A stretch of DNA of 36,051 bases. Source: a virus. Below the pieces are notes generated by a model, which searched no databases, was not told the DNA's origin, and saw nothing but the letters and a program-made list of their open reading frames with translations. The stretch spans positions 1 to 36,051 of IMG/VR virus record IMGVR_UViG_3300046007_014531; one strand, written 5' to 3'. Below are positions 234 through 28,284 of the stretch, piece by piece. Every line of letters begins with the position of its first letter. Within the stretch, counting starts at the first letter, position 1. The position numbers and the translations under genes were made by a program.

Positions 234-1592
234 TTAGGGTTCCCACAATTCATCATTTAAATCAATTATATTAATTGGATTTTTTTTGGAAGCTTTTATT
301 CCATCGCCTTTAACTCCAACAATAATTGTTTGATGAATTTTAATTGCCTTTCTACCCATTTCAAATTGACCTAATCTAAAAACGCTACCGCCAATTGGGC
401 TTTTATATATATATTCATTATAATATTTTAATCCAGCTTCTTCAAATGAACGAATTGTTAATCCACACATATCAAAAATTGATCCGTTACTTTTTCTTAA
501 ATTTCCTACTACAAATATACAAAAACTATCATCTTGCAAATTTTGAACTGATCTTTTTATTATAGAGGAATATAAATCTATAAATTCTTTTTCTGTTTTA
601 TTAGAAATATCAGAATCTAATTCGGAATATTTTTCTAGGTTAAAATATGGTGGACATGTAAAAATTAAATCAATATCTTTTGGTACATCAACAGTATTAG
701 AGTCTTCTAATATCCATTTAGGAAAAAAGTCCTTGTTAAACATATTTAATCTATTTAGATATTTTGCGTTTTCGTTATTTGCGATAACTTGCTCTGGCCT
801 AATTTCGCATCCAATATATTTTCTACCCAATGTGGCCGTAACCACACCACGAACGGGACCACCAGCGAATGGATCATAGACGATAGAATTTTCTGATGAA
901 TGCCAGGAAACCATTAGTTCAGCGATAACCGGATCGAATAGCGAAATGGGATTATTTTTTTCTTGCATTTTTTGGGAAACTGGATCGTTTTGATTGGCGT
1001 AAGAAAATGCTGTTGCATCTCTAGCTATTTCACTTTCTATACCCCAGGCTTTCCACCAATTTTTTCTATTTCGCCAATTGTCATTTGTTGAATCTAAAAT
1101 TGATACTGGGCTATACCCAAATTTTTCAACAATTTTTCCCTTAGATGATTTATATAATTTTCCATCTGATCCTATAACTTTTTCAGACTTTAGCCCAATT
1201 TTTTCTCTTATTTTAGCTACAGTAACATCGGATACACCGAGTCTTTTTGCTATTGAATTATTTGAATCATTCGGACTATCAGATATTTCACCAGCTATAA
1301 CAATTCTTTTTTGCTCAGTGTTTAAATGTCGCCTAGCTACATTTAAAGATCTAGCTTCAGATCTTTTTTCCTGCTCAGTTAAATTTGATCTAACAATTTT
1401 CGGACATTCAATATTATGTTTGTCACAAATCATTTTTCTATGATGTCCGTCAATGATTTCACCATTCTCATCAACTATAATTGGAACTAGAACACCCTTT
1501 TCAATAATGCTATTTTCTAAATTGTCTAACTCAATTTGAGTTAATGGTGGAAGAAGCTGGTATGGTCCATGTGCATTAAATTCAGTTTCCAT
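234..1592 (-). CDS. ParB-like domain / DNA methyltransferase fusion
   Basis: This 452-residue protein is probably a DNA base methyltransferase with its own DNA-recognition module. The N-terminal part (about 10-135) is ParB-like: it has the DGHHR motif at 48-52 and a helix-turn-helix-like segment at 111-135 (SIAKRLGVSDVTVAKIRE). The C-terminal half carries the SAM-binding motif DPFAGG at 240-245 and the catalytic motif TCPPY at 312-316. Motif I precedes motif IV, which suits an amino-methyltransferase (N6-adenine or N4-cytosine) of gamma-like order, though the target base cannot be read from sequence. Its start overlaps the end of the upstream oxygenase gene by 11 bases, so the two are probably translationally coupled. 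ParB-methyltransferase fusions are known in phages. The link to an oxygenase is less familiar. Confidence 0.85.
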   Translation of the reverse strand: METEFNAHGPYQLLPPLTQIELDNLENSIIEKGVLVPIIVDENGEIIDGHHRKMICDKHNIECPKIVRSNLTEQEKRSEARSLNVARRHLNTEQKRIVIAGEISDSPNDSNNSIAKRLGVSDVTVAKIREKIGLKSEKVIGSDGKLYKSSKGKIVEKFGYSPVSILDSTNDNWRNRKNWWKAWGIESEIARDATAFSYANQNDPVSQKMQEKNNPISLFDPVIAELMVSWHSSENSIVYDPFAGGPVRGVVTATLGRKYIGCEIRPEQVIANNENAKYLNRLNMFNKDFFPKWILEDSNTVDVPKDIDLIFTCPPYFNLEKYSELDSDISNKTEKEFIDLYSSIIKRSVQNLQDDSFCIFVVGNLRKSNGSIFDMCGLTIRSFEEAGLKYYNEYIYKSPIGGSVFRLGQFEMGRKAIKIHQTIIVGVKGDGIKASKKNPINIIDLNDELWEP

Positions 1593-2682
1593 TGGATTTC
1601 CTTAAAATATCTATAATTTTTTCATTTACAATAGCGTCAGCAACTAAATGAATTCTTGGAGCATTACCATTATTAAATGCTGCGTGAGGTTTTCTAACAT
1701 CTAGATACCACCAATCATTGATTGACATATGATATTCCGAACATTTTCCATCCAGATTCCACATTTGAAATTTTGAATTTTCATTAGTTTGAATTGGTAA
1801 ATGAAATCTAGCAATTTTACCGATGGAAGCTCCAGCATTTTTATCAGTTATATCTGCGTGTCTAGTTAAAGATCCGTTTGAATCTAATTTCATAAATCTA
1901 ATTCTTTCAAATTCACAATCTAAAAGATTTAATACATTTTTTAAATTTGGAATTTCATAAAATAGTTCAGTATTTTTAACTTCTAAATTTAATTTATTTG
2001 GATTATCTTTTTTCCACTTTTTAGACATTTCTGATGGTTTTTCAATGAAATCTTTTTCACCACCAAAGGATCTCAGTGAAACAGCTTTCCAAGACTTTCC
2101 CTTATTATATGAGGAATAATGATTAATCCATAAGTTTTCTATTATAGAATTCCAATCTGATAAATCAATATCAGTGGATAAATTGGTTTTTATTATACTT
2201 AATTTTTCTATTGGCTCTATAGGATTAATGGTTTCTATATTTAAAGTTGCTATACTTTTTATTTCAGAAGATGCCAATATTTGAGTACCTATAATTTTTA
2301 AGTTTAAATTATTTGCTATATATTTACTTGTAGGATTCTCTGTCCAGAATTTCCATAAAATTTTATCACAATTAAAATTTTTAATAATTTCTATTATAGA
2401 ATTTGGATCGCCAGCAACTCTTTCAATCAATAAAGTGCTCGCTGGGGCGCTAGCTATTTTTATTCCCCTAAAGTCTTTTATTGGCAGTGCAGCTTTCAAT
2501 TTTTTAGCAGCAACAACAGAGCCATTTATTTCATAAATATTTTCTGACTTAATCCAGTCTGCTACTGTACTCTCATTTACTTTTGAAAATAAGCTTAAAT
2601 GATATTCTTTATCATAATTATTAAAAATTGTAGAATATTTTTTTAGTATATTTATATCAATGCCATTTTGCCATTTTTCCAT
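1582..2682 (-). CDS. GNAT-like / aspartyl-asparaginyl-hydroxylase-like 2OG-Fe(II) oxygenase
   Basis: The 366-residue protein has two parts. The C-terminal part (about 165-366) resembles the aspartyl/asparaginyl beta-hydroxylase branch of Fe(II)/2-oxoglutarate oxygenases. The RHAD motif supplies H275 and D277, ARFHLPI follows at 291-297, KPH gives the distal H333, and R343 is placed to bind 2-oxoglutarate. The N-terminal 150 residues are weaker. The stretch around 80-140, with NPTSKYIANN followed by a beta-strand-like segment, looks like the end of a GNAT acyltransferase fold, but no clear acetyl-CoA loop is seen. The gene is first in a two-gene leftward operon with the ParB-methyltransferase. 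The substrate is unknown. Modification of DNA bases or of a host protein are both possible. Confidence 0.7.
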   Translation of the reverse strand: MEKWQNGIDINILKKYSTIFNNYDKEYHLSLFSKVNESTVADWIKSENIYEINGSVVAAKKLKAALPIKDFRGIKIASAPASTLLIERVAGDPNSIIEIIKNFNCDKILWKFWTENPTSKYIANNLNLKIIGTQILASSEIKSIATLNIETINPIEPIEKLSIIKTNLSTDIDLSDWNSIIENLWINHYSSYNKGKSWKAVSLRSFGGEKDFIEKPSEMSKKWKKDNPNKLNLEVKNTELFYEIPNLKNVLNLLDCEFERIRFMKLDSNGSLTRHADITDKNAGASIGKIARFHLPIQTNENSKFQMWNLDGKCSEYHMSINDWWYLDVRKPHAAFNNGNAPRIHLVADAIVNEKIIDILRKSNGN

Positions 2683-2726: not shown

Positions 2727-2755
2727 CATTGTCAACAATGATACTTTAAAAGTAT
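2727..2755. promoter_or_regulatory. Tandem perfect palindromes in a divergent promoter region
   Basis: The 71-base gap between divergent genes holds two adjacent inverted repeats. One is CATTGT-CA-ACAATG (2727-2740). The other is ATACTTT-A-AAAGTAT (2741-2755), which runs into the ATG of the cytosine methyltransferase at 2754. No Shine-Dalgarno precedes that ATG. TGATACTTT could act as an extended -10, giving a leaderless transcript. The layout suits an operator that controls one or both divergent modification genes. Function is inferred. Confidence 0.5.
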
Positions 2756-3860
2756 GAATTGTTTAAGTTTATTTAGCGGCATCGGTGGTTTCGATTTAGG
2801 TTTCGAACGTGCCGGTATTCAAACGGTTGCCATGTGTGAAGCCGATAGCATTGCACGAAATATTTTACATAAACATTGGCCTGATGTGCCTGTGATAGAA
2901 GATGTGAGTGATTTAGATGGAAGAGAATATCGAACAGTTGAAATTATTTCAGGTGGATTCCCCTGCCAAGACATCTCAGTCGCAGGAAACAGAAAAGGTC
3001 TCGCAGGATCCAAGTCTGGGCTTTGGTGGGAGTTTTATCGAATCGTTTCTGAATCAATGCCAAAATGGGTTGTCATTGAAAACGTCGCTGGACTCATGTC
3101 TTCTGGAGGAAGACGGGACTTGGGTGCCATCATCGGGTCGTTGGGGGAACTCGGGTATTTGGGGGGGTATCGAGTGTTGGACGCTCGGTATTTCGGAGTG
3201 GCCCAGAGACGTAGAAGAATGTTTATTGTCGGAAGTCTTGGAAACAACGGTGGACAGAAAGTATTTTTTGAGTCAGAAGGCTTGCCAGGGGATCTTGAAA
3301 AGAGCAGACAAGAGGGGAAGAAAAATTCCGGAGCAGCTTTACAAAGCTCTTCAGAGAGTAGCAAATTGCTCGCAGAATCAGGAGTAGTTGGCAGTTTAAC
3401 TAAAAGTTTTGGTGGTGCTGGTGCCGACGCTCAACACGCTCAAAATGGTTGGCTGGTTCCGGTTCCTTTTGCGGAGAATCAGCGTTCTGAAGTTATCTAC
3501 ACTGATTTACCAACTTTAAGCACTGGTGGTGGAAAACCGGGGCAGGGTTATCCTGCAATTTTGAGCTATCCTAATAATAGTGGAACTGTGATGGCTAGTT
3601 GGGCGAAAGGGCCTGGGAACGCTCAGGTTGATGAAGGCCATGTTATCCCTTCTTTAGATTCACAGCAGAATTTAGAAGTGAGGAGATTGACTCCTGTTGA
3701 GTGTGAAAGATTGATGGGTTTACCGGATAATTGGACCAAGTTTGGGGCCGACGGTAAAACTATTGCAGATAGTCATCGTTATCGTTTTTGTGGTAATGCT
3801 GTTGTTTCAAATGTTGCTGAGTGGCTGGGTAAGCGAATTGTTGCAGTAGATCAATCGTAA
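2754..3860 (+). CDS. dcm: C5-cytosine DNA methyltransferase
   Basis: This 368-residue enzyme transfers a methyl group from SAM to C5 of cytosine in DNA. Motif I is LFSGIGGFDLGFE (6-18). The catalytic PCQ has its nucleophile at C71, ENV is motif VI at 109-111, and GVAQRRRR is motif VIII at about 148-155. The target-recognition region (about 170-300) is followed by the C-terminal motifs RLTPVECERLMGLPD and FCGNAVV. Length and motif order are normal for a phage orphan methyltransferase, and no partner restriction endonuclease is visible. Roughly residues 55-211 are encoded by DNA that is also open in the +1 frame (see the overlapping gene). The gene has no clear ribosome-binding site and its ATG lies inside a palindrome. 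Confidence 0.95.
   Translation: MNCLSLFSGIGGFDLGFERAGIQTVAMCEADSIARNILHKHWPDVPVIEDVSDLDGREYRTVEIISGGFPCQDISVAGNRKGLAGSKSGLWWEFYRIVSESMPKWVVIENVAGLMSSGGRRDLGAIIGSLGELGYLGGYRVLDARYFGVAQRRRRMFIVGSLGNNGGQKVFFESEGLPGDLEKSRQEGKKNSGAALQSSSESSKLLAESGVVGSLTKSFGGAGADAQHAQNGWLVPVPFAENQRSEVIYTDLPTLSTGGGKPGQGYPAILSYPNNSGTVMASWAKGPGNAQVDEGHVIPSLDSQQNLEVRRLTPVECERLMGLPDNWTKFGADGKTIADSHRYRFCGNAVVSNVAEWLGKRIVAVDQS
2917..3387 (+). CDS. Embedded overlapping gene inside the cytosine methyltransferase
   Basis: A 156-codon open frame, +1 relative to dcm, lies wholly inside it. Its product has features I recognise from phage hypothetical proteins associated with cytosine methyltransferases. There is an early SPAKTSQ segment (about 15-21), a central GLSLKTSLDSC, then LSEVLE and the C-terminal block YFLSQKACQGILKRADKRGR followed by KIPEQLYKAL. 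That last block recurs in phage proteins as a YFLSxxACxGILRRAxxRGK-type motif. Both frames therefore appear to carry recognisable family signatures. The dcm segment concerned also looks less AT-rich than its surroundings, as dual coding would require. No strong ribosome-binding site is seen before the ATG, so the start is uncertain. The function is unknown. Confidence 0.6.
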   Translation: MEENIEQLKLFQVDSPAKTSQSQETEKVSQDPSLGFGGSFIESFLNQCQNGLSLKTSLDSCLLEEDGTWVPSSGRWGNSGIWGGIECWTLGISEWPRDVEECLLSEVLETTVDRKYFLSQKACQGILKRADKRGRKIPEQLYKALQRVANCSQNQE

Positions 3861-3894
3861 GCCTTTTTGTCCGTTGACAGTGTGAGGTGCTGTC

Positions 3895-7880: not shown

Positions 7881-9308
7881 ATGTTTAAAGCTGCTAAAGA
7901 AATAAAAGTTGGTGATCATGTTGCTTACGCTGTGCCGAAGCCACCTGATGCAACCACTTATGCTCATGGGGTAGTTAAAAGCGTTAAAACTAGTGGAACT
8001 GTGAAAGTTGCCGGAACTCAAGAATCTTATGAAGCAACTTCCGATGATCCAGTAGCAACTATTGAAGTTTGGGCTGTTGACGACAATGGTGATCCTGTGG
8101 AAAAAACAGATCGAACTGTTGCGAAACCTTTTTCGAAGCTTCGAGTTATGAGAACTCCGCTGAAAGAAAAAGCGGTTTCAGAAAGTTCTTTGAGAAAGCT
8201 CATGGAGGAGCACAATAAAAATGCTCCAGAGGGCAGAAAAGTTCAATTATCTACTTTGAAAAAAGTTTTTAATCGTGGCGTTGGGGCTTACAAAACTAAT
8301 CCAGGAAGCGTAAGACCAACCGTTAGAAGTGCGGATCAGTGGGGCTATGGGAGAGTTAAGGCATTTCTAAAAATGCTGAAGAGTGGATCAGCTCCAAGGA
8401 AACCTTTCGATCAAGATCTTTTACCTAAAGAACATCCTCTATCAAGTAAGGCTAATGAAATGATTAAAGAAGGCGATATTGTAGAGTTCATGATGGACAA
8501 CAGTGTCATGGGTCACCCTGATCTTCCAGAAGATGGGCAGCACAAGCATGTTGGTTCAGTTGAGCATGTTATGTATGACGGCTTTTTCGGTGTGCGTGGG
8601 TCAAAGTTTTATTCGCCGGCTTCCGTCGAGAATCCTGCTGTTCTTATCAGAATTTGGATGGACGATCAGGAAACTGAGCTAATGGTTGGAAGAATGGCTG
8701 ATGAGGTCACCAAAGTTGGTGAACTTGATTCAGTTGAAGAAGAGGACGAAGACCAAGATTTTGAAGATAATGAGGAGTTCGCTGCAACCTATGCGATCCC
8801 TGATCGTGTCAAGAAAAATGCTCAACGTGGTCTAGATCTTCGCAAGAAGTTTGGCCGTGGCGGTACTGATGTTGGGGAGAATACAGCTAGAACTCTAGCT
8901 GCTGGTGGATCAATAGGCATTGAAAAGGTGAAGCATATTAATCGCTACTTCCCCCGTCACGCTGGCGACAATCTGAGTGACAAGACTTCCAATGGATGGA
9001 TTGCTTGGCTGCTTTGGGGTGGAGACGCTGCTTGGTCTTGGACCAGAGGAATCATTCGTAGCTATGAAGCTGAGCAGAAGCGTGATGGCGCAAGAATGTT
9101 CACTCAGGAGCGCCGTATGAAGCTCGCCAAGGAAGGTTTAGCTCTTCCAGATGGATCATATCCAATTGTAACTATTGGTGATCTGAAAAATGCAATTCAG
9201 GCTTACGGTCGTTCAAAAGATAAGGAAGCGACCAAGAAGCATATTATGAAGAGGGCACGTTCACTTAAGGCTATGGATTTAATTCCAGAAGAATGGCTTA
9301 AGGACTGA
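7881..9308 (+). CDS. Multidomain phage protein with two Tudor-like barrels
   Basis: This is a 475-residue protein of unknown function. Its N-terminal 95 residues look like a hypervirulence-associated Tudor (HVA1/DUF2945-type) barrel: KVGDHVAYAVPKPP, HGVVKSVKTSG and SKLRVM. A short module at about 125-170 (KVFNRGVGAYKTNPGSVRP, QWGYGRVKAFLKML) is of a kind I know from phage structural or maturation proteins. A second barrel-like unit follows at about 193-280 (IKEGDIVEFMMDNS, GSVEHVMYDG). An acidic linker (EEEDEDQDFEDNEE) joins it to a C-terminal domain (about 305-400) with FGRGGTDVGENTARTLA, HINRYFPRHAG and AWLLWGGDAAWSW. It may be a chaperone, scaffold or DNA-binding adaptor. It overlaps the convergent methyltransferase by 11 bases. 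Confidence 0.75.
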   Translation: MFKAAKEIKVGDHVAYAVPKPPDATTYAHGVVKSVKTSGTVKVAGTQESYEATSDDPVATIEVWAVDDNGDPVEKTDRTVAKPFSKLRVMRTPLKEKAVSESSLRKLMEEHNKNAPEGRKVQLSTLKKVFNRGVGAYKTNPGSVRPTVRSADQWGYGRVKAFLKMLKSGSAPRKPFDQDLLPKEHPLSSKANEMIKEGDIVEFMMDNSVMGHPDLPEDGQHKHVGSVEHVMYDGFFGVRGSKFYSPASVENPAVLIRIWMDDQETELMVGRMADEVTKVGELDSVEEEDEDQDFEDNEEFAATYAIPDRVKKNAQRGLDLRKKFGRGGTDVGENTARTLAAGGSIGIEKVKHINRYFPRHAGDNLSDKTSNGWIAWLLWGGDAAWSWTRGIIRSYEAEQKRDGARMFTQERRMKLAKEGLALPDGSYPIVTIGDLKNAIQAYGRSKDKEATKKHIMKRARSLKAMDLIPEEWLKD

Positions 9309-9960
9309 TCTTTTTAAAGATTGCCAACTTTTCAGAATCTGCTCTTAAAGCAGAATTAGATCCGTGCTTTATTCTTTTGGTATCTATTGATACAATTTCG
9401 TCAATATAAAATCCAATATCTATCAGTGTAGATACATGCCATTCTACTACCGATTCTTCTTTGCCTGCTCTGATATGATTAGAGATATTAAGAAATAGAT
9501 ATCCATCTTCGTTTAGCACCTTGTAGCACTCGTTCCAAATTTGTTGATGCAATAACTTATATTTATTACCCCAATTAAATTTGGCTGTGTTTGTATCTGC
9601 AAGATCTCTACCTAAAGAGATTCTATAAGTATATCTTTTAGAATTTTTTGCATCTCCCTGATATTGATCAGACATTCTATTGCCATAAGGTGGAGATGTG
9701 ATTATTGCATCAAACTTTTGGTCTTTAAATATTTTAGTTAACTTAGTGGAGTCAGCACAAATATTTCTTTCGTGCTGATCAGCCCATTCTTTTTCTATTT
9801 CAACACCAATTGTTTTATATGGTGGACATAAAGAATGTATGCCACCAGTTCCAGCAAATGGATCTAAAACTAGAGATCCTTTATCTAATCTTTTTTGTGA
9901 ATGAATAAGTAAAGAAGATATCACTTCTTTTGAAAAGACTGCTGGATGATTGACTGTCAT
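9298..9960 (-). CDS. DNA amino-methyltransferase (N6-A or N4-C)
   Basis: The 220-residue enzyme has SAM motif DPFAGTG at 33-39 and the catalytic TSPPYGNR at 88-95. This is the small form with motif I before motif IV and no large recognition domain. HGSNSALRADSEKLAIFKK forms the C-terminus. The TSPPY motif fits N4-cytosine or N6-adenine methylation, and the site is unknown. It is the last gene of the leftward five-gene operon, and its start codon overlaps the ThyX stop in an ATGA junction. No endonuclease partner is seen, so it is probably an anti-restriction or regulatory orphan enzyme. Confidence 0.88.
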   Translation of the reverse strand: MTVNHPAVFSKEVISSLLIHSQKRLDKGSLVLDPFAGTGGIHSLCPPYKTIGVEIEKEWADQHERNICADSTKLTKIFKDQKFDAIITSPPYGNRMSDQYQGDAKNSKRYTYRISLGRDLADTNTAKFNWGNKYKLLHQQIWNECYKVLNEDGYLFLNISNHIRAGKEESVVEWHVSTLIDIGFYIDEIVSIDTKRIKHGSNSALRADSEKLAIFKKISP

Positions 9961-10742
9961 ATCATGTGCCTCAGCTGCTGCCAGCCATTAAAGTTTCCGA
10001 GTGCTTGATCTGATGGAGTTGCAATCATCTCAAATGGAGATAGATGAGGCGGCTCAGCCGAAATTAGTCTCTCATAAAGTTGCCTATCAGCATCAAAATC
10101 TTTTTTGTTTTGGTTTAGATAAGATGATCTAGCAACTCTGGCAACAGAAATCTTTTTCAAATCTTCAATGTCGAAATCTTGTTTTTCTTCAGTGGAAATG
10201 TATGGAAGATGCCATTCTCCTGAATGCACAATTTTAGGATTTGATGAATCTAGAGCTTCTTTCATTTTTATAGAAAGTTCTCTGAACTCTGGCTGAGCAT
10301 CTTTATGAATTCTTTGTTCAAAACAATTAGAGAAGTCAGTTGCTGAAATAACCGAGGTATGCCAAATAAATGGTTCAAGGATTCTTGACGCAATTTGTTT
10401 GTGCAAGCCTATAGATTCAAGTATCTGAGCGTAATCAGCTGCAGCATATGAGGCTTCTATCCAAGTTGAAATACACTCCGACGCCTTGTCCGAAGCTAGT
10501 TCCTGTTCAGCAACCATTCCACGCTGATTCTTGCCCCACTCAACTGGAATAGCAGGATTTTCCAAAACTTCTTGAATTCTTCTTTTAAGAGGTATGGCTC
10601 TTGAAGAAGCAGCATTCCTTGACCACATTCTATATGTGTTTACTTCTGGTAAGATAAATCTATGGAAAGTGCATTCCATAGTCGTTAGCCTATCTCCAGA
10701 TTCATTTATGCTGTCTTCGATAATTGTAGCTGAAATTGTCAT
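9957..10742 (-). CDS. thyX: ThyX-like flavin-dependent thymidylate synthase, divergent motif
   Basis: This 261-residue protein belongs to a phage ThyX-like group. TYRMWSRNAASSRAIP (37-52) occupies the place of the canonical RHRx7S signature, EPFIWHTSVISATDF and HKDAQPEFREL follow, and HLSPFEMIA is near the C-terminus. ThyX converts dUMP to dTMP using FAD and methylenetetrahydrofolate. Here the histidine and second arginine of RHR are replaced (SRN-A), so substrate handling may differ. The upstream neighbour is dCMP deaminase, which makes dUMP, the ThyX substrate, and ATGA overlaps link all three neighbours. This supports a pyrimidine-nucleotide role. Production of a modified pyrimidine cannot be excluded. 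Confidence 0.8.
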   Translation of the reverse strand: MTISATIIEDSINESGDRLTTMECTFHRFILPEVNTYRMWSRNAASSRAIPLKRRIQEVLENPAIPVEWGKNQRGMVAEQELASDKASECISTWIEASYAAADYAQILESIGLHKQIASRILEPFIWHTSVISATDFSNCFEQRIHKDAQPEFRELSIKMKEALDSSNPKIVHSGEWHLPYISTEEKQDFDIEDLKKISVARVARSSYLNQNKKDFDADRQLYERLISAEPPHLSPFEMIATPSDQALGNFNGWQQLRHMI

Positions 10743-11206
10743 AGTGATATTTGGATTATTTGTATGGATGCGCTGTTGAAAAATTGCCGAACATCTTTAG
10801 ATGATACCTTATCTTCTTCTTTGAGATGCACAATTCTTTTTATTCCAGCTGCAGCGATTGATTTAGCGCATGTTAGGCACGGCTCGCCATTAACGTAAAG
10901 AGTTGAATTAGAATATCTGAATCCATCTCCATGAGCTAGAGCGGAAACTTCCGCATGTGAACTATAGCATAGCCCTGGTCCGTGATCATATGGGGTTCCA
11001 CTAGGAACATTATTTAAAAATCTTGGACAGCCACCGTCTTTGCAGTGTTTCATTCCAGATGGAACGCCATTATATCCCTGTCCAACAATTCTACCATAGC
11101 CATGATCGTCTATGATGAAGCACCAGTATTGTTTTTTTCCGCATGTTGAAAATATTTTTGCACACTCAATACATGCTTTTATCCATTTAATATCTCTTGA
11201 TTTCAT
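10739..11206 (-). CDS. dCMP deaminase
   Basis: This 155-residue zinc enzyme of the cytidine/deoxycytidylate deaminase family has HAE at 84-86 (zinc ligand and catalytic glutamate) and PCLTC with C110 and C113. GQGYNGVPSGMKHC is the usual dCMP-deaminase signature. The reaction is dCMP to dUMP, feeding the adjacent thymidylate synthase. Extra cysteines upstream (C55, C60) and H75 resemble the second, structural zinc site of ComEB-type enzymes. ATGA-type overlaps join it to genes on both sides. Confidence 0.93.
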   Translation of the reverse strand: MKSRDIKWIKACIECAKIFSTCGKKQYWCFIIDDHGYGRIVGQGYNGVPSGMKHCKDGGCPRFLNNVPSGTPYDHGPGLCYSSHAEVSALAHGDGFRYSNSTLYVNGEPCLTCAKSIAAAGIKRIVHLKEEDKVSSKDVRQFFNSASIQIIQISL

Positions 11207-11463
11207 TCTTCCGGCTCAGAATTGGAATCCATTTTTTCTATTACGTCAAACCACTGTAGAGCAGTTAAATCTCTTCTCACTCTGCCGCCGACCCTTTCGT
11301 CAGTTTCCGTACATGCATCAATAAATGACTGATCAGATCTTTTAAAATGCATTGTTTTACCTTCGTGATTGAATAGGTAGGCGTATTCATTATTGCCTAA
11401 CGGAACAATTCTTTTAACTTCTCCAGAAGGCTGGTACTCTTGCTGCTTTACTTTTCTTGCCAT
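11203..11463 (-). CDS. Small hypothetical protein in nucleotide operon
   Basis: This 86-residue charged, soluble protein contains VKRIVPLGNNEYAYLF, which suggests a small beta-rich fold, followed by a helical tail (LTALQWFDVIEKM) and an acidic end. I do not recognise a family. It is locked into the leftward operon by a 16-base overlap with the ParB-like gene and a 4-base overlap with dCMP deaminase. It may be an accessory factor for one of its neighbours. Confidence 0.7.
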   Translation of the reverse strand: MARKVKQQEYQPSGEVKRIVPLGNNEYAYLFNHEGKTMHFKRSDQSFIDACTETDERVGGRVRRDLTALQWFDVIEKMDSNSEPEE

Positions 11464-11909
11464 ATCAGCTCCATAAGTTCGGGGAATAGCTCTGACAAAT
11501 CTACCGATCTTGCTTTGTGTTTGTCAACACGAACGATCTCAACAGGAAACTTTGTTAACCCGATCTGCTTTGCAGCAAGGAAACGATGGTTTCCATCAGA
11601 CAGTCTAACGCTGTTATTGTCATAAGTTAATTTGCCTGGGGTAATTATTCCATTATCTTTTATGGAAATTGCTAATTCCCGAATATAGTTTCTGTCTTTA
11701 TATACTATTTCTGCAATATATTTTGAATCAATTGTTTTTTCAATCAGAGTCATTGGAATATAATGTCTACTGTCTTGTTTAGATTTTAGTGGAGCAGCTA
11801 AACCATAGAAGCCATCGTCAGAAAACTCGGAACCCCAATGCTCCTGATTTTCAACAACTTTATGGGATTTCCTGTTCTTTAGGGAAGATAAAATCATGAT
11901 CGCCGCCAT
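11448..11909 (-). CDS. ParB/Srx-fold domain protein
   Basis: This 153-residue protein has a ParB-like nuclease/sulfiredoxin-fold core: IRELAISIKDNGIITPGKLT, then DGNHRFLAAKQIG with DGNHR at 105-109. Members bind DNA or nucleotides, and some have nuclease or CTPase activity. It leads the leftward operon that includes a DNA methyltransferase, so it may guide or regulate modification. A second ParB-like domain is fused to the methyltransferase at 234-1592. The start is uncertain: ATG 11909 overlaps the divergent gene by 14 bases, while ATG 11897 would leave only a 2-base overlap. Neither has a strong ribosome-binding site. Confidence 0.78.
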   Translation of the reverse strand: MAAIMILSSLKNRKSHKVVENQEHWGSEFSDDGFYGLAAPLKSKQDSRHYIPMTLIEKTIDSKYIAEIVYKDRNYIRELAISIKDNGIITPGKLTYDNNSVRLSDGNHRFLAAKQIGLTKFPVEIVRVDKHKARSVDLSELFPELMELIWQEK

Positions 11910-20591: not shown

Positions 20592-21292
20592 ATATTGTTA
20601 TTGGATGCCCTTTCTCTGATCGTGGCTGGATTTTAGATAGATGGCTTGATCATATTTATGCAGCTTTTTCTGAAGCTAATATTGAACCTTCTTTTATTTT
20701 TGTTACTGGAAGCGGAAATGAAGAAGACATAGATCTTCTTTCCTCTATCCCAAATGCCACAACAAGAGTTGTTTCTGAAGATTCAAGAAACGATATTAGA
20801 AGATGGAATCATTCAAGATATGAACATATGGTATATTTACGAAATGTTCTCTTGAATTGCGTAAGAGAAAGAAATCCAGATCTATTTCTAAGCCTAGATT
20901 CAGATATCTTACTTGCCCCAAATTCTATAGTTTCAGCTCTAGATGCTTTGGATAACCATCCATCAGCTTGGGCGGTTGGTTTGAAATGTTTTATGAGTCC
21001 AACTTCTTTAGTTCATCCAAGTATGGGAATTTGGAGAGATTTATCTTTCACAAGATTCTCTAGAACAAACACTGATGATATTGCAACTGTTGATATTGTT
21101 ATGGCTGCTAAATTAATGAAACCAGAAGCATACAATATTGATTATTCATTCCATAGAAATGGTGAAGATCTTGGATGGTCATTGAATGTTAAAAATGCTG
21201 GCGGCAAGTTTATTTGGGATGGACGAGTAACTAATAAACATGTAATGGGTGAAAAGTTTTTAAATGTCACCGATAAGAGGGCCGGATTTTGA
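20588..21292 (+). CDS. GT-A-type glycosyltransferase
   Basis: This 234-residue protein opens the glycan cluster. MNIVIGCPFSDRGWILDRWL is followed by an acidic metal site in PDLFLSLDSDILLAP (DSD at about 107-109). ATVDIVMAAKLMKPEAY and HRNGEDLGWSL follow. The fold looks GT-A-like, distinct from the KNE-type enzymes. Donor and acceptor are unknown. I choose ATG 20588, which overlaps the previous stop in an ATGA junction, over an upstream start that would extend into the preceding gene. Confidence 0.78.
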   Translation: MNIVIGCPFSDRGWILDRWLDHIYAAFSEANIEPSFIFVTGSGNEEDIDLLSSIPNATTRVVSEDSRNDIRRWNHSRYEHMVYLRNVLLNCVRERNPDLFLSLDSDILLAPNSIVSALDALDNHPSAWAVGLKCFMSPTSLVHPSMGIWRDLSFTRFSRTNTDDIATVDIVMAAKLMKPEAYNIDYSFHRNGEDLGWSLNVKNAGGKFIWDGRVTNKHVMGEKFLNVTDKRAGF

Positions 21293-22065
21293 ATATCGAA
21301 TTAGTGGTTATCAACTATAGAACATATCATCTGCTACAAGAGTTTATTGATTCTTATTTAGACAATAAACCTTCAATAGATTCTCACTTGACGATTATTG
21401 ACGTAGACTCTACTGACGAATTTGATTCTCTGAACTTTCCGGAGGATTGTGTTTCTGCAGTACGAACCGACTGGAATCTTGGTTATGCTTTAGCGTGCAA
21501 CTACGCCGCCTACACATCTCAGTCAGATTATTTAGCATTTTTTAATGCTGATACTAGATTTATTAATGATACTTGTATTGACTATTGTGTAAACTTCATG
21601 GAAGAAAATCCAACTGTAGGTATAGTTGGGCCACTTCAATTTGACGAAAATAAAAAAGTTACCCACGCCGGAATCTTTGGTTCTCTATCTAAACCTAAGC
21701 ATCATGGTTGGAGATCCTCAGACATTGAGGCAATGAGATTTAATAGAAAAGCTGTCACTGTTTCAGGATCGGCTTTCTTTATTAGAAGAGATCTTTGGTC
21801 TAATTTGACCAACTGCGAGATCTATAGATCCCAGTTCCCTGATGTTATAGGCGCATTTCTTCCAACGCAGCACTACTATGAAGAGACAGGCTGCGCATAT
21901 CATGCCTATGCTCACGGCTACGATGTTTGGTATCTTGGTGAAGCAGAGATGATTCATCACTGGCATAAGTCTTCTCCAGTTGGATCTTCTGTCGATTCAA
22001 AGATGGGTGAAGCTAAGAAAATTTTTGTAGATTTTTGTGAAGCTCATGGAATAGATCATGACTAA
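21289..22065 (+). CDS. GT2 glycosyltransferase, rhamnosyltransferase-like
   Basis: This 258-residue GT2 enzyme starts at TTG, overlapping the previous stop. IELVVINYRTYHLLQEFIDS, then DWNLGYALACNYAA, FFNADTRF (metal-binding region) and VGIVGPLQFDENKKVTHAG match the rhamnosyltransferase-like branch. VSGSAFFIRRDLW and a His-rich EAEMIHHWHKSS close the catalytic domain. Its sugar is not determinable from sequence. Confidence 0.87.
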   Translation: MNIELVVINYRTYHLLQEFIDSYLDNKPSIDSHLTIIDVDSTDEFDSLNFPEDCVSAVRTDWNLGYALACNYAAYTSQSDYLAFFNADTRFINDTCIDYCVNFMEENPTVGIVGPLQFDENKKVTHAGIFGSLSKPKHHGWRSSDIEAMRFNRKAVTVSGSAFFIRRDLWSNLTNCEIYRSQFPDVIGAFLPTQHYYEETGCAYHAYAHGYDVWYLGEAEMIHHWHKSSPVGSSVDSKMGEAKKIFVDFCEAHGIDHD

Positions 22066-22774
22066 TATCTTTGCTTTGATGATCGTCAAGAACGAGTCTA
22101 ATAGATACCTTGAATCAGTTCTGAAACATCTTTCATGGTATGTAGATGATATCATCATTGTTGATGATCATTCAACTGACTCTACTGTTGATATTGCTTC
22201 ACGATTTGCCAGAGTTGAAAGTCGTCCCTGTGAGGTTCCATCTTTCTTGGAGGATGAATCACAATTTCGCCAGTTTGCTTGGAATCAACTTGAAGAAAGA
22301 TTGATGCCATCAACCGATGATTGGATTTTGTCTGTTGATGCAGATGAGTTCATTATTGCTGATCATCCAAGAGATGATTTAATTGATTTAACTAAAACTA
22401 CTGATGTTGGCGTAAACATTCCAATTCCAGAACTTTGGAATCTTGATCCACCAAAGATAAGAGTTGACGGCTTTTGGAATAAGAATATGGCGCCAAGATT
22501 TTTTAGGTATATGCCTGGTGGAGTATTTCCAAATAAAAAGATGGGCTGTCCTCCATATCCAACTTATGTAAAATCAAATGTTGTTTCTAATCATTTAGAA
22601 ATACTGCATGTCGGATATGCTGATCCAGATGATGTTCAAAATAAGTATGAGAGATATTCGACTTTTTCAGTCGGACATAGTTCGCAGCATATTGCTTCTA
22701 TTATAAAAAAGCCAACTCTCATAGATTACAATAGACATATTCCAAATATTTATAGAGGCAATGATGGACAATAA
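22058..22774 (+). CDS. GT2 glycosyltransferase, KNE type
   Basis: This 238-residue enzyme begins NIFALMIVKNESNRYLESVL and has YVDDIIIVDDHSTDSTVDIA and the metal site LSVDADEF. It resembles the leftward enzyme at 5436-6248 in N-terminal architecture, so the two may use related donors. Its C-terminal half is rich in Pro and aromatics (MPGGVFPNKKMGCPPYP). It overlaps both neighbours in the operon. Confidence 0.88.
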   Translation: MTNIFALMIVKNESNRYLESVLKHLSWYVDDIIIVDDHSTDSTVDIASRFARVESRPCEVPSFLEDESQFRQFAWNQLEERLMPSTDDWILSVDADEFIIADHPRDDLIDLTKTTDVGVNIPIPELWNLDPPKIRVDGFWNKNMAPRFFRYMPGGVFPNKKMGCPPYPTYVKSNVVSNHLEILHVGYADPDDVQNKYERYSTFSVGHSSQHIASIIKKPTLIDYNRHIPNIYRGNDGQ

Positions 22775-23363
22775 TATATCTGTAATTATTGGCACATTTG
22801 GATCTGACGCATGGAAGAGCAAAGCAGACTCAAGAGCAAATTTTTCTGTCTCTCAGCAGTCTCTGATTCCTGAGCATGTTTATGTGCATCTACCTAACGG
22901 GACTCTTGCTGAAGCGAGAAATTCTGGAGCTAGTAATGCCACTAAAGATTTTCTCTGCTTTTTAGATGCTGACGATTTTTTAGATAAAAATTTTATCTAT
23001 TCAATGAATCAGGCGATTCGAGATTCGAACTTTTCTTCAAAAGTTTTGTTCCAGCCAGCCACTAAAACTTTTCGTTCGGACGAGAATCCAATTGTTATAC
23101 CAAAGAAAAATATTTTTGTTTCAAATTATTTGATTATTGGAACCGTTGTTCATCGTCAGACATTTTTGGATGCTGGCGGGTTTCATGAACTTGATGCTTT
23201 TGAAGATTGGGATCTTTGGATAAGATGTTTTCTTTCCGGCTGCTCCAGTGTTTCAGTCAGTTCTGCAATTTATGAAGTTGCAAATGAGCCAAATTCCAGA
23301 AATAAGAATGATCCAAAGATTTTAAATAAGGCTTATAATTCGATCAGGGCAAAATATAGATGA
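22761..23363 (+). CDS. GT2 glycosyltransferase, short
   Basis: This 200-residue GT2 enzyme has NISVIIGTFG at the N-terminus, LAEARNSGASNATKDFLCFL followed by DADDF as the metal site, and AFEDWDLWIRCFLSG near the acceptor side. It is short, holding little beyond the catalytic GT-A core. Two ATG codons lie in tandem at the start. It overlaps the previous gene by 14 bases and the next by 4. Confidence 0.86.
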   Translation: MMDNNISVIIGTFGSDAWKSKADSRANFSVSQQSLIPEHVYVHLPNGTLAEARNSGASNATKDFLCFLDADDFLDKNFIYSMNQAIRDSNFSSKVLFQPATKTFRSDENPIVIPKKNIFVSNYLIIGTVVHRQTFLDAGGFHELDAFEDWDLWIRCFLSGCSSVSVSSAIYEVANEPNSRNKNDPKILNKAYNSIRAKYR

Positions 23364-26811: not shown

Positions 26812-27316
26812 AGAAAATTTTTATAAATTTGTTTTAGACTGCAAATCTGATAGAAAAATTTTTGTTGAAACCGGAACTGCTGTTGGCAACACATCAATTT
26901 GGGCTTCAAATTTTTTTGATTCTGTAATCACTGTTGAATATATGAATGACCTTTACAGGTCTTGTATTGAAAGATTTTGGAATGTTGATAACATTAAATT
27001 AATTCATGGAGATTCTTCTGAATGGATTGATTTGATTGTCCATAATGTTGACGAGGATGCTGTATGGTTTTTGGATGCGCACAACGTCAACCGTGAAGAT
27101 GGGTTAAGGCCACCAAGCGAAACTCCAGTTGTAGACGAGATTGTGGCAATTTTTAAAGCAGCATACAATCATATTGTCATTGTTGATGATTTAAGACTTT
27201 TTGGTTCAGAAGCCGGATATCCTTATTTAAATGAAATTAGAGATCTTGGCGATAAATATCGTTTCAATATCGAAGTGCATGAACAAAAAGATATTTTTGT
27301 GGCTAGGAGAATTTGA
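26801..27316 (+). CDS. Class I SAM methyltransferase-like protein
   Basis: This 171-residue protein has RKIFVETGTAVGNTSIW (motif I, VETGTAVGNT at 22-31), VITVEYMNDLY and a WFLDAHNVN metal- or substrate-site motif. IVIVDDLRLFG follows. The pattern recalls methyltransferase-like proteins of glycan clusters in phages and bacteria, although methyl transfer itself is unproven. It overlaps the epimerase start by one base. Confidence 0.75.
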   Translation: MLSEENFYKFVLDCKSDRKIFVETGTAVGNTSIWASNFFDSVITVEYMNDLYRSCIERFWNVDNIKLIHGDSSEWIDLIVHNVDEDAVWFLDAHNVNREDGLRPPSETPVVDEIVAIFKAAYNHIVIVDDLRLFGSEAGYPYLNEIRDLGDKYRFNIEVHEQKDIFVARRI

Positions 27317-28284
27317 TGAAAGCATTGGTCGCTGGGGCTGGCGGATTCATTGGCGGGCATTTGGTTAAAAGATTGCTGAACAACGGTTTTGATGTCGTTG
27401 CTGCAGATATCAAGCCCGCTTCTGACTGGTATCAGGTAGACAATAGATCTAATAATTTGTTTAATCTCGACCTTAAGTCTTATGGCAATTGCTTAATTGC
27501 AACAAATGAATGTGATCAAGTTTATAATCTGGCTGCAGATATGGGCGGCATGGGCTTTATTTCAAGTCACAGAGTTGACTGCATGGAGTCTGCTCTTATA
27601 ACTATCAACATTCTGAAAGCTTCAGAGTCTAACGATATTGACACATTCTTTTATGCTTCCTCAGCTTGTGTTTACAACGATTCTCTACAGTCGGTAGAAG
27701 ATGTTTCCTTAAAAGAGTCTGATGCTTGGCCAGCGGATCCTGAACCTGGTTATGGTTTAGAAAAACTTTTTGGCGAAGAAATAGCAATGTTTTACAGACA
27801 GGAAAAGAATATAAAAACTGTTATCGCTAGATTTCACAATATTTTTGGACCAAATGGGACTTTTGATGGGGGAAGAGAAAAGGCTCCTGCTGCTATTTGT
27901 AGAAAAGTTGCTCAGGCTTCATTGACTGGAGATCTTGAGATTGAAATTTGGGGTGACGGAAACCAGACAAGATCATTTCTGTATGTAGATGAATGTCTTG
28001 ATGGGATAGAAAAAATGGTTTCTGTTGGCTATGATAAGCCTCTAAATCTTGGAAGCAGTGAGCTTGTTTCGATCAATCAACTTGTTTCAATGGTTGAGAA
28101 TATTGCTGGAATTAAATTGAATAGAGTTTACAATCTTGATGCACCACAGGGTGTCAGGGGAAGAAACAGCAATAATGATTTGATTGATGAAATTCTTGGG
28201 TGGAAGCCGACTCAATCACTTGAGGTTGGCTTAGCTAAGACTTATGCTTGGATCAAGGATCAAGTTTACAATTCTGTCCCTTAA
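27316..28284 (+). CDS. GDP-mannose 3,5-epimerase-like
   Basis: This 322-residue NAD-dependent short-chain epimerase closely follows plant GDP-mannose 3,5-epimerase in memorable segments. The Rossmann motif is GAGGFIGGHL (7-16). ADMGGMGFI, SSACVY (C118), SLKESDAWPA, YGLEK (Y146, K150), RFHNIFGPNGTFDGG and REKAPAAICRK follow. C118, Y146, K150 and K189 match the known catalytic Cys, Tyr and Lys residues. The expected reaction is GDP-D-mannose to GDP-L-galactose (or GDP-L-gulose). AGGAGA (27305-27310) precedes ATG 27316. It is the last gene of the glycan operon. Confidence 0.88.
   Translation: MKALVAGAGGFIGGHLVKRLLNNGFDVVAADIKPASDWYQVDNRSNNLFNLDLKSYGNCLIATNECDQVYNLAADMGGMGFISSHRVDCMESALITINILKASESNDIDTFFYASSACVYNDSLQSVEDVSLKESDAWPADPEPGYGLEKLFGEEIAMFYRQEKNIKTVIARFHNIFGPNGTFDGGREKAPAAICRKVAQASLTGDLEIEIWGDGNQTRSFLYVDECLDGIEKMVSVGYDKPLNLGSSELVSINQLVSMVENIAGIKLNRVYNLDAPQGVRGRNSNNDLIDEILGWKPTQSLEVGLAKTYAWIKDQVYNSVP

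Follow-up and report, generated by a model that had tools for sequence, protein, structure and literature searches.

A widespread phage gene set that probably places an amino-acid-like side chain on DNA bases and hydroxylates it

Here we report the analysis of two overlapping genes, called OX and MT below, in a viral DNA stretch of 36,051 bases (IMG/VR record IMGVR_UViG_3300046007_014531, listed without end repeats and possibly a fragment), which as a whole we refer to as the window. OX encodes a GNAT-fold domain followed by a 2-oxoglutarate (2OG) oxygenase domain, and MT a ParB-like domain followed by a DNA-methyltransferase (MTase) fold (Table 1). The two genes belong to a widespread and conserved enzyme set by which an amino-acid-like side chain is probably put on phage DNA bases and then hydroxylated, a modification of an uncharacterised kind. 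It is very likely that OX, MT and a third gene, PALP, whose product depends on pyridoxal phosphate (PLP), make up a hypermodification module for phage DNA bases; for the explanation as a whole, in which an arm of S-adenosylmethionine (SAM) would be loaded onto the base and then hydroxylated by OX within such a module, we estimate a probability of about 0.57. Hypermodified bases in phage DNA keep out restriction and CRISPR enzymes and are a source of new nucleic-acid chemistry. A preliminary description of this DNA had singled out OX and MT as a coupled pair and a candidate for DNA hypermodification; both open reading frames (ORFs) are indeed present on the minus strand, and their 11-nt overlap makes translational coupling likely.

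Searches with OX returned 35 and then 313 relatives in IMG/VR (the best 80 of the 313 were kept) and 3 in GTDB genomes; MT scans returned at least 561 (A4) and 264 (A5) relatives, with the best 80 of each kept, and all locus counts given here are samples biased towards near relatives. The 108 OX loci form 67 clusters at 90% identity, a count that leaves out L002 (the window itself), L004 and L006 (no OX), L005, L040, L039 (the same genome as phage LilMcDreamy) and the contig-repeating loci L041-L044, L047, L050 and L057. An MT gene lies within 3 kb of OX in 45/67 clusters and PALP in 39/67: both are found in 33 clusters, MT alone in 12, including the window, and PALP alone in 6. Ten clusters instead have a TET/JBP-like gene (TET) together with a gene matching the amino acid:DNA transferase family of Pfam (ADDT, PF18724), while two have ADDT alone, two TET alone and two none of these, so that MT and/or PALP accompany OX in 51/67 clusters, TET and/or ADDT in 14/67 and neither set in 2/67. 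The neighbouring MT and PALP genes are all on the same strand as OX, and the 341 kb lying within 3 kb of OX hold 43 MT, 38 PALP, 12 TET and 12 ADDT ORFs, against 2 MT and none of the other three in 269 kb of control sequence 3-8 kb away in the same loci. Conserved pairing, as the preliminary description had supposed, is therefore borne out by the survey, although its two-gene view missed PALP, which usually makes up a trio with them, as well as the occurrence with ADDT and a sister group of MTases linked to a SAM decarboxylase, all of which point to the transfer of something larger derived from SAM.

Several of these genes are also fused. L015, L045, L048 and L059 each have MT and OX in a single ORF, and one ORF of 1218 aa in L058 carries ParB (55-176), the N-terminal half of MT (212-378), PALP (371-602), OX (626-997) and the C-terminal half of MT (1027-1201), an order that is spread over two overlapping ORFs in L049. 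PALP likewise stands between two matched MT pieces in the isolates Pam4 and Erythrobacter phage R6L. Since PALP and OX are inserted beside the catalytic motif of MT, they probably share with it either the base acted on or the donor. The hypermodification setting is thus upheld by domain fusions as well as by the TET/JBP-like and ADDT operons described below. The OX-then-MT order of the window recurs in L067, L077, L091, L108 and L114, where the MTs belong to a distant subfamily of about 523 aa. Phage oxygenases with a PF05118 match only (the Limnohabitans phage DC33 gene in L005, L040, and Pelagibacter phage Mosig) were considered as OX relatives and left out of the counts; the DC33 (208 aa) and L040 (175 aa) ORFs match only the C-terminal part of OX, with no MT or PALP profile match nearby. 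In L001, on a contig that by eye seems to carry sliding clamp and clamp loader genes, a ThiS/MoaD-like sulfur-carrier gene (3587-3889) overlaps the start of OX; recurrence of this arrangement was not seen and it was not used.

The oxygenase domain of OX matches Asp_Arg_Hydrox (PF05118) over residues 188-350 (41.5 bits against a Pfam cut-off of 22.6, E 1.6e-10), and its predicted model, built on an alignment of 30 sequences, has a mean predicted local distance difference test (pLDDT) score of 95.4 and a double-stranded beta-helix (DSBH) fold. The active site noted in the preliminary description is intact throughout the family: the iron ligands and the 2OG-binding Arg are kept in 66-67 of the 67 cluster representatives, the one departure being a Q in place of H275. 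In a comparison of the model with the PDB, the domain appears closest to L-proline cis-4-hydroxylase and the caprazamycin beta-hydroxylase Cpz10 (Z 16.5, rmsd 2.6 and 156 aligned residues for 7v4m; Z 16.4 for 4p7x), then to proline 3-hydroxylase and AspH (Z about 15 for the human structures), with AlkB and the HIF prolyl hydroxylases ranking below these amino-acid hydroxylases. Sequence matches at E<=0.01 are confined to cis-4-hydroxylase (4p7w, 3.8e-10), Cpz10 (2.2e-5 to 0.0012) and proline 3-hydroxylase (0.0038). No match of the window OX to Tet_JBP (PF12851) was found in Pfam at E<=1, and TET structures are not among the matches listed for OX, although kinship is still possible. From these resemblances OX would most likely hydroxylate an amino-acid side chain. 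L-proline cis-4-hydroxylase (4p7w) and AspH share the DSBH oxygenase superfamily with OX but act on free proline or on Asp in EGF domains, unlike the substrate proposed here, and we know of no MTase linkage for them. Cpz10 (7v4f, 7v4m) shares the fold, the H-x-D...H triad and the 2OG Arg, although it lacks a GNAT domain and is only about 24% identical over the aligned part. According to the available part of PMC9814697, it beta-hydroxylates amino-acyl-glycyluridine through His115, Asp117, His160 and Arg170, so that its substrate, too, is an amino acid borne by a nucleoside, albeit in a small antibiotic intermediate rather than in DNA.

The N-terminal domain of OX was expected to be GNAT-like, and structure prediction agrees: the first 162 residues modelled alone (pLDDT 95.9) adopt a GNAT fold, and in both PDB comparisons of this domain the 50/50 chains among the matches listed are acetyltransferases, the best with Z 12.4. 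The loop RxxGx[GA], which we take to be the acyl-CoA motif of GNAT acyltransferases, is kept in only 4/67 OX representatives, the window having RVAGDP instead. The domain is therefore probably a degenerate binding domain, and the methylate-then-acylate route raised in the preliminary description is unlikely to be carried out by OX. General Pfam and PHROGs library searches with the window pair, which involved no direct comparison with Mom, gave no Mom family match.

OX occurs in two contexts. Type A consists of ParB-MT, OX and PALP, and type B of a ParB-like gene, a TET/JBP-like gene, ADDT and OX, followed by terminase. In type B, LilMcDreamy, a Mycobacterium phage, has a full-length OX homologue (TM 0.85) beside base-modification genes (genes 1-4); unlike in the window, its ParB gene lacks an MT domain, and TET-like and ADDT genes replace MT and PALP. 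Its gene 3, annotated as hypothetical, is ADDT (E 2.7e-12), and gene 2 (L003 855-1787) has a weak Tet_JBP match (E 0.0022, below the cut-off), in view of which we dropped its GenBank annotation as a queuine tRNA-ribosyltransferase or tRNA-guanine transglycosylase. L025, which counts as TET-only, carries ADDT according to Pfam, and L028, the other TET-only locus, has a homologous gene. The type-B operon may reportedly be described already in the 2013 Nucleic Acids Research survey of base-modification systems by Iyer and colleagues. Should an amino acid be provided by ADDT in type B, then, given the substrates of OX relatives, the simplest common substrate for OX would be an amino-acid side chain borne by a base. 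In type A such a side chain would have to come from somewhere other than ADDT, and SAM itself carries one. The window ORFs, from a possible fragment, gave no ADDT match and one TET match at chance level (E 0.49).

MT matches N6_N4_Mtase (PF01555) at 54.2 bits with an intact CPPY motif, and its ParB-like part, also anticipated in the preliminary description, is weak in Pfam (18.2 bits, below the cut-off of 26.3) and clear in PHROGs (phrog_620, ParB-like, E 5.5e-11). Motif I reads DPFAGGPVRG in the window MT against DPFAGTGTT in the methylase 2zie, and thus departs from DPFxG(S/T)GTT, presumably the usual N6_N4 consensus. In the haloarchaeal virus HCTV-2 (L125 3339-5567) the gene directly after a ParB-MTase relative encodes a second N6_N4 MTase.

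In a sister clade of MT the Arg of motif I has been lost (GGSVRG to GD[ST]VFG). In Pseudomonas phage ZRG1 and Croceibacter phage P2559S, whose MTs have D[TC]FAGDTVFG as opposed to DPFAGG.VRG in the rest of the family, a SAM decarboxylase gene lies directly downstream of ParB-MT (PF02675, E 1.6e-23 and 2.1e-19, respectively). Among 172 MT loci, 75 of the GD..F type have the decarboxylase and 7 do not, and 3 have no recognisable motif; the remaining 87, of the GG..R type, include 0 with the decarboxylase, 14 with PALP, 2 with OX and PALP, and 71 with none of the three within 2 kb. The decarboxylase is downstream of MT with a gap of <=60 nt in 73/75 cases and is kept in 48/51 GD..F clusters; as the GD motif was part of the pattern used to find the A5 loci, decarboxylase presence alone is the independent observation for these. 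Eleven alignment columns tell the two groups apart, and three of these (P70C, G74D and R77F in alignment numbering) fall within motif I, with R in 114/114 GG..R and F in 82/82 GD..F sequences, the groups being defined by this motif. All 82/82 GD..F sequences form one clade (support 0.999), so the switch of motif and decarboxylase happened once. In eight of the nine isolates with ParB-MT relatives that were tested OX was not found, the ninth being LilMcDreamy.

The chief role known for decarboxylated SAM is to donate aminopropyl groups, and an MT with an altered cofactor loop and a decarboxylase of its own is best read as a DNA aminopropyltransferase; the GD..F ParB-MTases (L124, L129, L210-L289) are, on this basis, candidate DNA aminopropyltransferases. 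By extension, for the Arg-containing MTs that accompany PALP and OX, the group passed to DNA would be the aminocarboxypropyl arm of SAM. The available part of PMC9992855 reports that an E. coli speD mutant regained spermidine when given P2559s SpeD, from which it follows that SpeD makes decarboxylated SAM and is a bona fide SAM decarboxylase (AdoMetDC). That paper, as far as available, treats the enzyme as part of polyamine metabolism, unlike the DNA-modification reading offered here for a gene adjoining a GD..F ParB-MT of the window MT's family, and the available portion of its main text mentions neither ParB nor a methyltransferase. No spermidine synthase (PF01564) match was found in 22/22 decarboxylase-linked records, many of which are fragments and whose hosts may supply the enzyme. 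Linkage to MT does not explain every viral speD, since vB_BcoS-136, phiYS40 and S-PM2 have no ParB-MT annotated next to theirs.

The nearest solved relative of PALP is ACC deaminase (1j0a, E 5.2e-11), followed by cysteine and tryptophan synthases and serine dehydratases, and its PLP lysine, Lys 26 in a GGSK motif, is invariant in 18 aligned sequences. In a neat scheme PALP might remove a beta-hydroxyl placed by OX, in the manner of threonine dehydratase, but PALP also occurs without OX. A GNAT-like acetyltransferase gene (FR47, E 0.0017, below the cut-off) directly follows PALP in L018 (5115-5600), with a homologue in the same place in L021 (10000-10338), and is a possible fourth tailoring enzyme. 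In Microcystis phage Mae-JY30 (L128 4238-4948) a gene annotated as "DNA modification methylase" encodes a PALP-family PLP enzyme (E 4.6e-12).

On the reading we prefer, the ParB-like domain would bring MT to DNA, and MT would flip a base out via CPPY and load its exocyclic amine with an alpha-amino-acid side chain from SAM, the likeliest group being the 3-amino-3-carboxypropyl (acp) arm rather than methyl. OX would hydroxylate the added side chain, most likely at the beta carbon, and in most relatives PALP (ACC-deaminase/PALP fold) would further process the amino acid or the SAM donor. In the sister branch a SAM decarboxylase would supply decarboxylated SAM for an aminopropyl group on the base, and in type B an amino acid from the TET/JBP-like and ADDT route would be tailored by the same type of oxygenase. 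The analysis shows the gene set with its conservation and fusions, the folds, the intact motifs and the coupling of motif I type to the decarboxylase, while the base, the position, the transferred group and the order of steps are those we infer; we give about even odds to this large and so far unrecognised ParB-"methyltransferase" family not methylating but transferring the acp arm (or aminopropyl in the decarboxylase branch) to bases, with OX and PALP tailoring the side chain. The proposed likeness of MT to SAM aminocarboxypropyl transferases of the TYW2, TapT and Tsr3 types is a functional analogy only. In the wybutosine pathway (TYW2/TYW5), SAM aminocarboxypropyl transfer by an MTase-fold enzyme is likewise followed by 2OG hydroxylation of the side chain, but on tRNA rather than DNA and with an oxygenase of the JmjC subfamily, unlike OX. 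The CmoX/CmoA/CmoY carboxymethylcytosine system is similar in that a DNA MTase-fold enzyme draws on a modified SAM to put a handle for hypermodification in place, with ParBc genes nearby; it differs in using a C5-type enzyme (SPPC) and carboxy-SAM, whereas the MT of the window is of the N6_N4 type with CPPY, and neither OX nor PALP figures in the system as described in the available part of PMC12783734.

Several observations weigh against this reading. The searches with the PALP alignment found no PALP among the ORFs of the window, itself possibly a fragment, in which 233 nt separate the end of MT from the contig edge; a PALP could therefore be located just beyond it. PALP occurs without OX in 14 GG..R loci of the 172 MT loci and therefore does not need a hydroxylated product; the 71/87 GG..R loci without OX, PALP or decarboxylase imply that such MTs need none of these partners and could simply methylate; and in 16 OX clusters the sole MT, up to 2.8 kb away, is only remotely related (a distant subfamily, with E from about 1e-13 to 1e-25). 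The switch of motif and decarboxylase, moreover, is a single evolutionary event and took place in the sister clade, not in the window MT. A phage SpeD could instead contribute to polyamine synthesis in the host, and, according to the available part of PMC10407285, some of its phage homologues act as decarboxylases of Arg or Orn.

Oxidation of a methyl group, the route the preliminary description had suggested, would have MT make N6-methyladenine or N4-methylcytosine and OX hydroxylate the N-methyl to hydroxymethyl or remove it. The complete N6_N4_Mtase domain with CPPY and the 12/67 clusters, the window's among them, that have MT and OX without nearby PALP agree with it, but it gives no role to PALP, which is present in 39/67 clusters and fused with MT and OX in one polypeptide, and it fits poorly with an OX that also occurs with ADDT and no MT and with a motif I shifted from GTGTT (2zie) to GGSVRG. 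We regard this route as unlikely because AlkB is more distant from OX than proline 3-/4-hydroxylase, Cpz10 and AspH are, and because OX gave no match to Tet_JBP. The pair and the field assigned to it, DNA hypermodification, thus stand; for the mechanism, arm loading from SAM followed by hydroxylation is favoured over methyl oxidation or acylation.

Beta-replacement is the reaction type of cysteine and tryptophan synthases, both of which the PALP profile matches, and with the invariant Lys 26 of GGSK this would suit a PALP that itself adds an alanyl-type group, MT methylating or only flipping or binding the base and OX tailoring the product. Such a role is a little less likely still: ACC deaminase is the best match, OX and MT pairs without PALP exist, and the decarboxylase-linked MT branch would be left unexplained. 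That OX hydroxylates a protein (MT, capsid or a host protein), as AspH or EF-Tu prolyl hydroxylase does, with a regulatory pairing, seems improbable, for although PF05118 by its family name includes protein hydroxylases and human AspH scores as noted above, the insertion of OX in the MT catalytic domain (L058) and its association with ADDT and TET point to DNA. Phage genomes are mosaic and most GG..R MT loci lack OX and PALP, as would be expected if an ordinary orphan methyltransferase merely sat beside an unrelated oxygenase, yet the enrichment near OX relative to distal flanks, the constant strand and the several fusions contradict such a chance arrangement and make it very improbable.

A literature search of papers accessible without subscription found nothing on MT-PALP-oxygenase DNA modification, DNA aminopropylation or DNA aminocarboxypropylation, and we know of no earlier instance of either of the latter two. 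If correct, the proposal would to our knowledge describe the first such modification of DNA, and a new route by which DNA receives an amino acid straight from SAM, together with a modular set of tailoring enzymes. It would also account for some viral speD genes without spermidine synthase, as a second explanation beside the polyamine one.

Table 1. Features of the OX and MT genes, in window coordinates
Feature	Position	Strand	Basis
OX: GNAT-fold N-terminal domain and Asp/Asn-hydroxylase-type Fe(II)/2OG oxygenase, 366 aa	1582..2682	-	ORF call; PF05118 E 1.6e-10; model
OX residues 1-155, GNAT-fold domain; acyl-CoA loop RxxGx[GA] absent in window	2218..2682	-	PDB comparison, best Z 12.4 to SbzI 8zt3
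OX residues 161-358, double-stranded beta-helix 2OG oxygenase domain	1609..2202	-	PDB structure comparison
OX H275-A-D277, two iron ligands	1852..1860	-	H 66/67, D 67/67
OX H333, third iron ligand	1684..1686	-	67/67
OX R343, 2OG-binding Arg, counterpart of Cpz10 R170	1654..1656	-	67/67; Cpz10 residues from the available part of PMC9814697
MT: ParB-like domain and N6_N4 DNA-methyltransferase-fold domain, 452 aa; proposed SAM aminocarboxypropyl transferase	234..1592	-	Pfam, PHROGs
MT residues 9-75, ParB-like N-terminal domain	1368..1568	-	PF02195 E 0.0027, below cut-off; PHROGs ParB-like
MT residues 240-249, motif I DPFAGGPVRG, "GG..R" type	846..875	-	Motif alignment
MT residues 312-316, catalytic motif TCPPY	645..659	-	Motif alignment
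Overlap of OX end and MT start, 11 nt	1582..1592	-	ORF coordinates

Elsewhere in the window, a C5 cytosine methyltransferase gene (2754-3860, plus strand) starts 71 nt from the start of OX and is divergent from it. A second cluster with small overlaps on the minus strand (9298-11909) comprises an N6_N4 MTase (9298-9960), a ThyX-like thymidylate synthase (9957-10742), a dCMP deaminase (10739-11206) and, at higher coordinates, a ParB-like gene (11448-11909), and is possibly a second nucleotide or base-modification operon. A run of overlapping glycosyltransferase family 2 genes on the plus strand (21289-23363) consists of 21289-22065, 22058-22774 and 22761-23363, and a nucleotide-sugar epimerase gene lies at 27313-28284.

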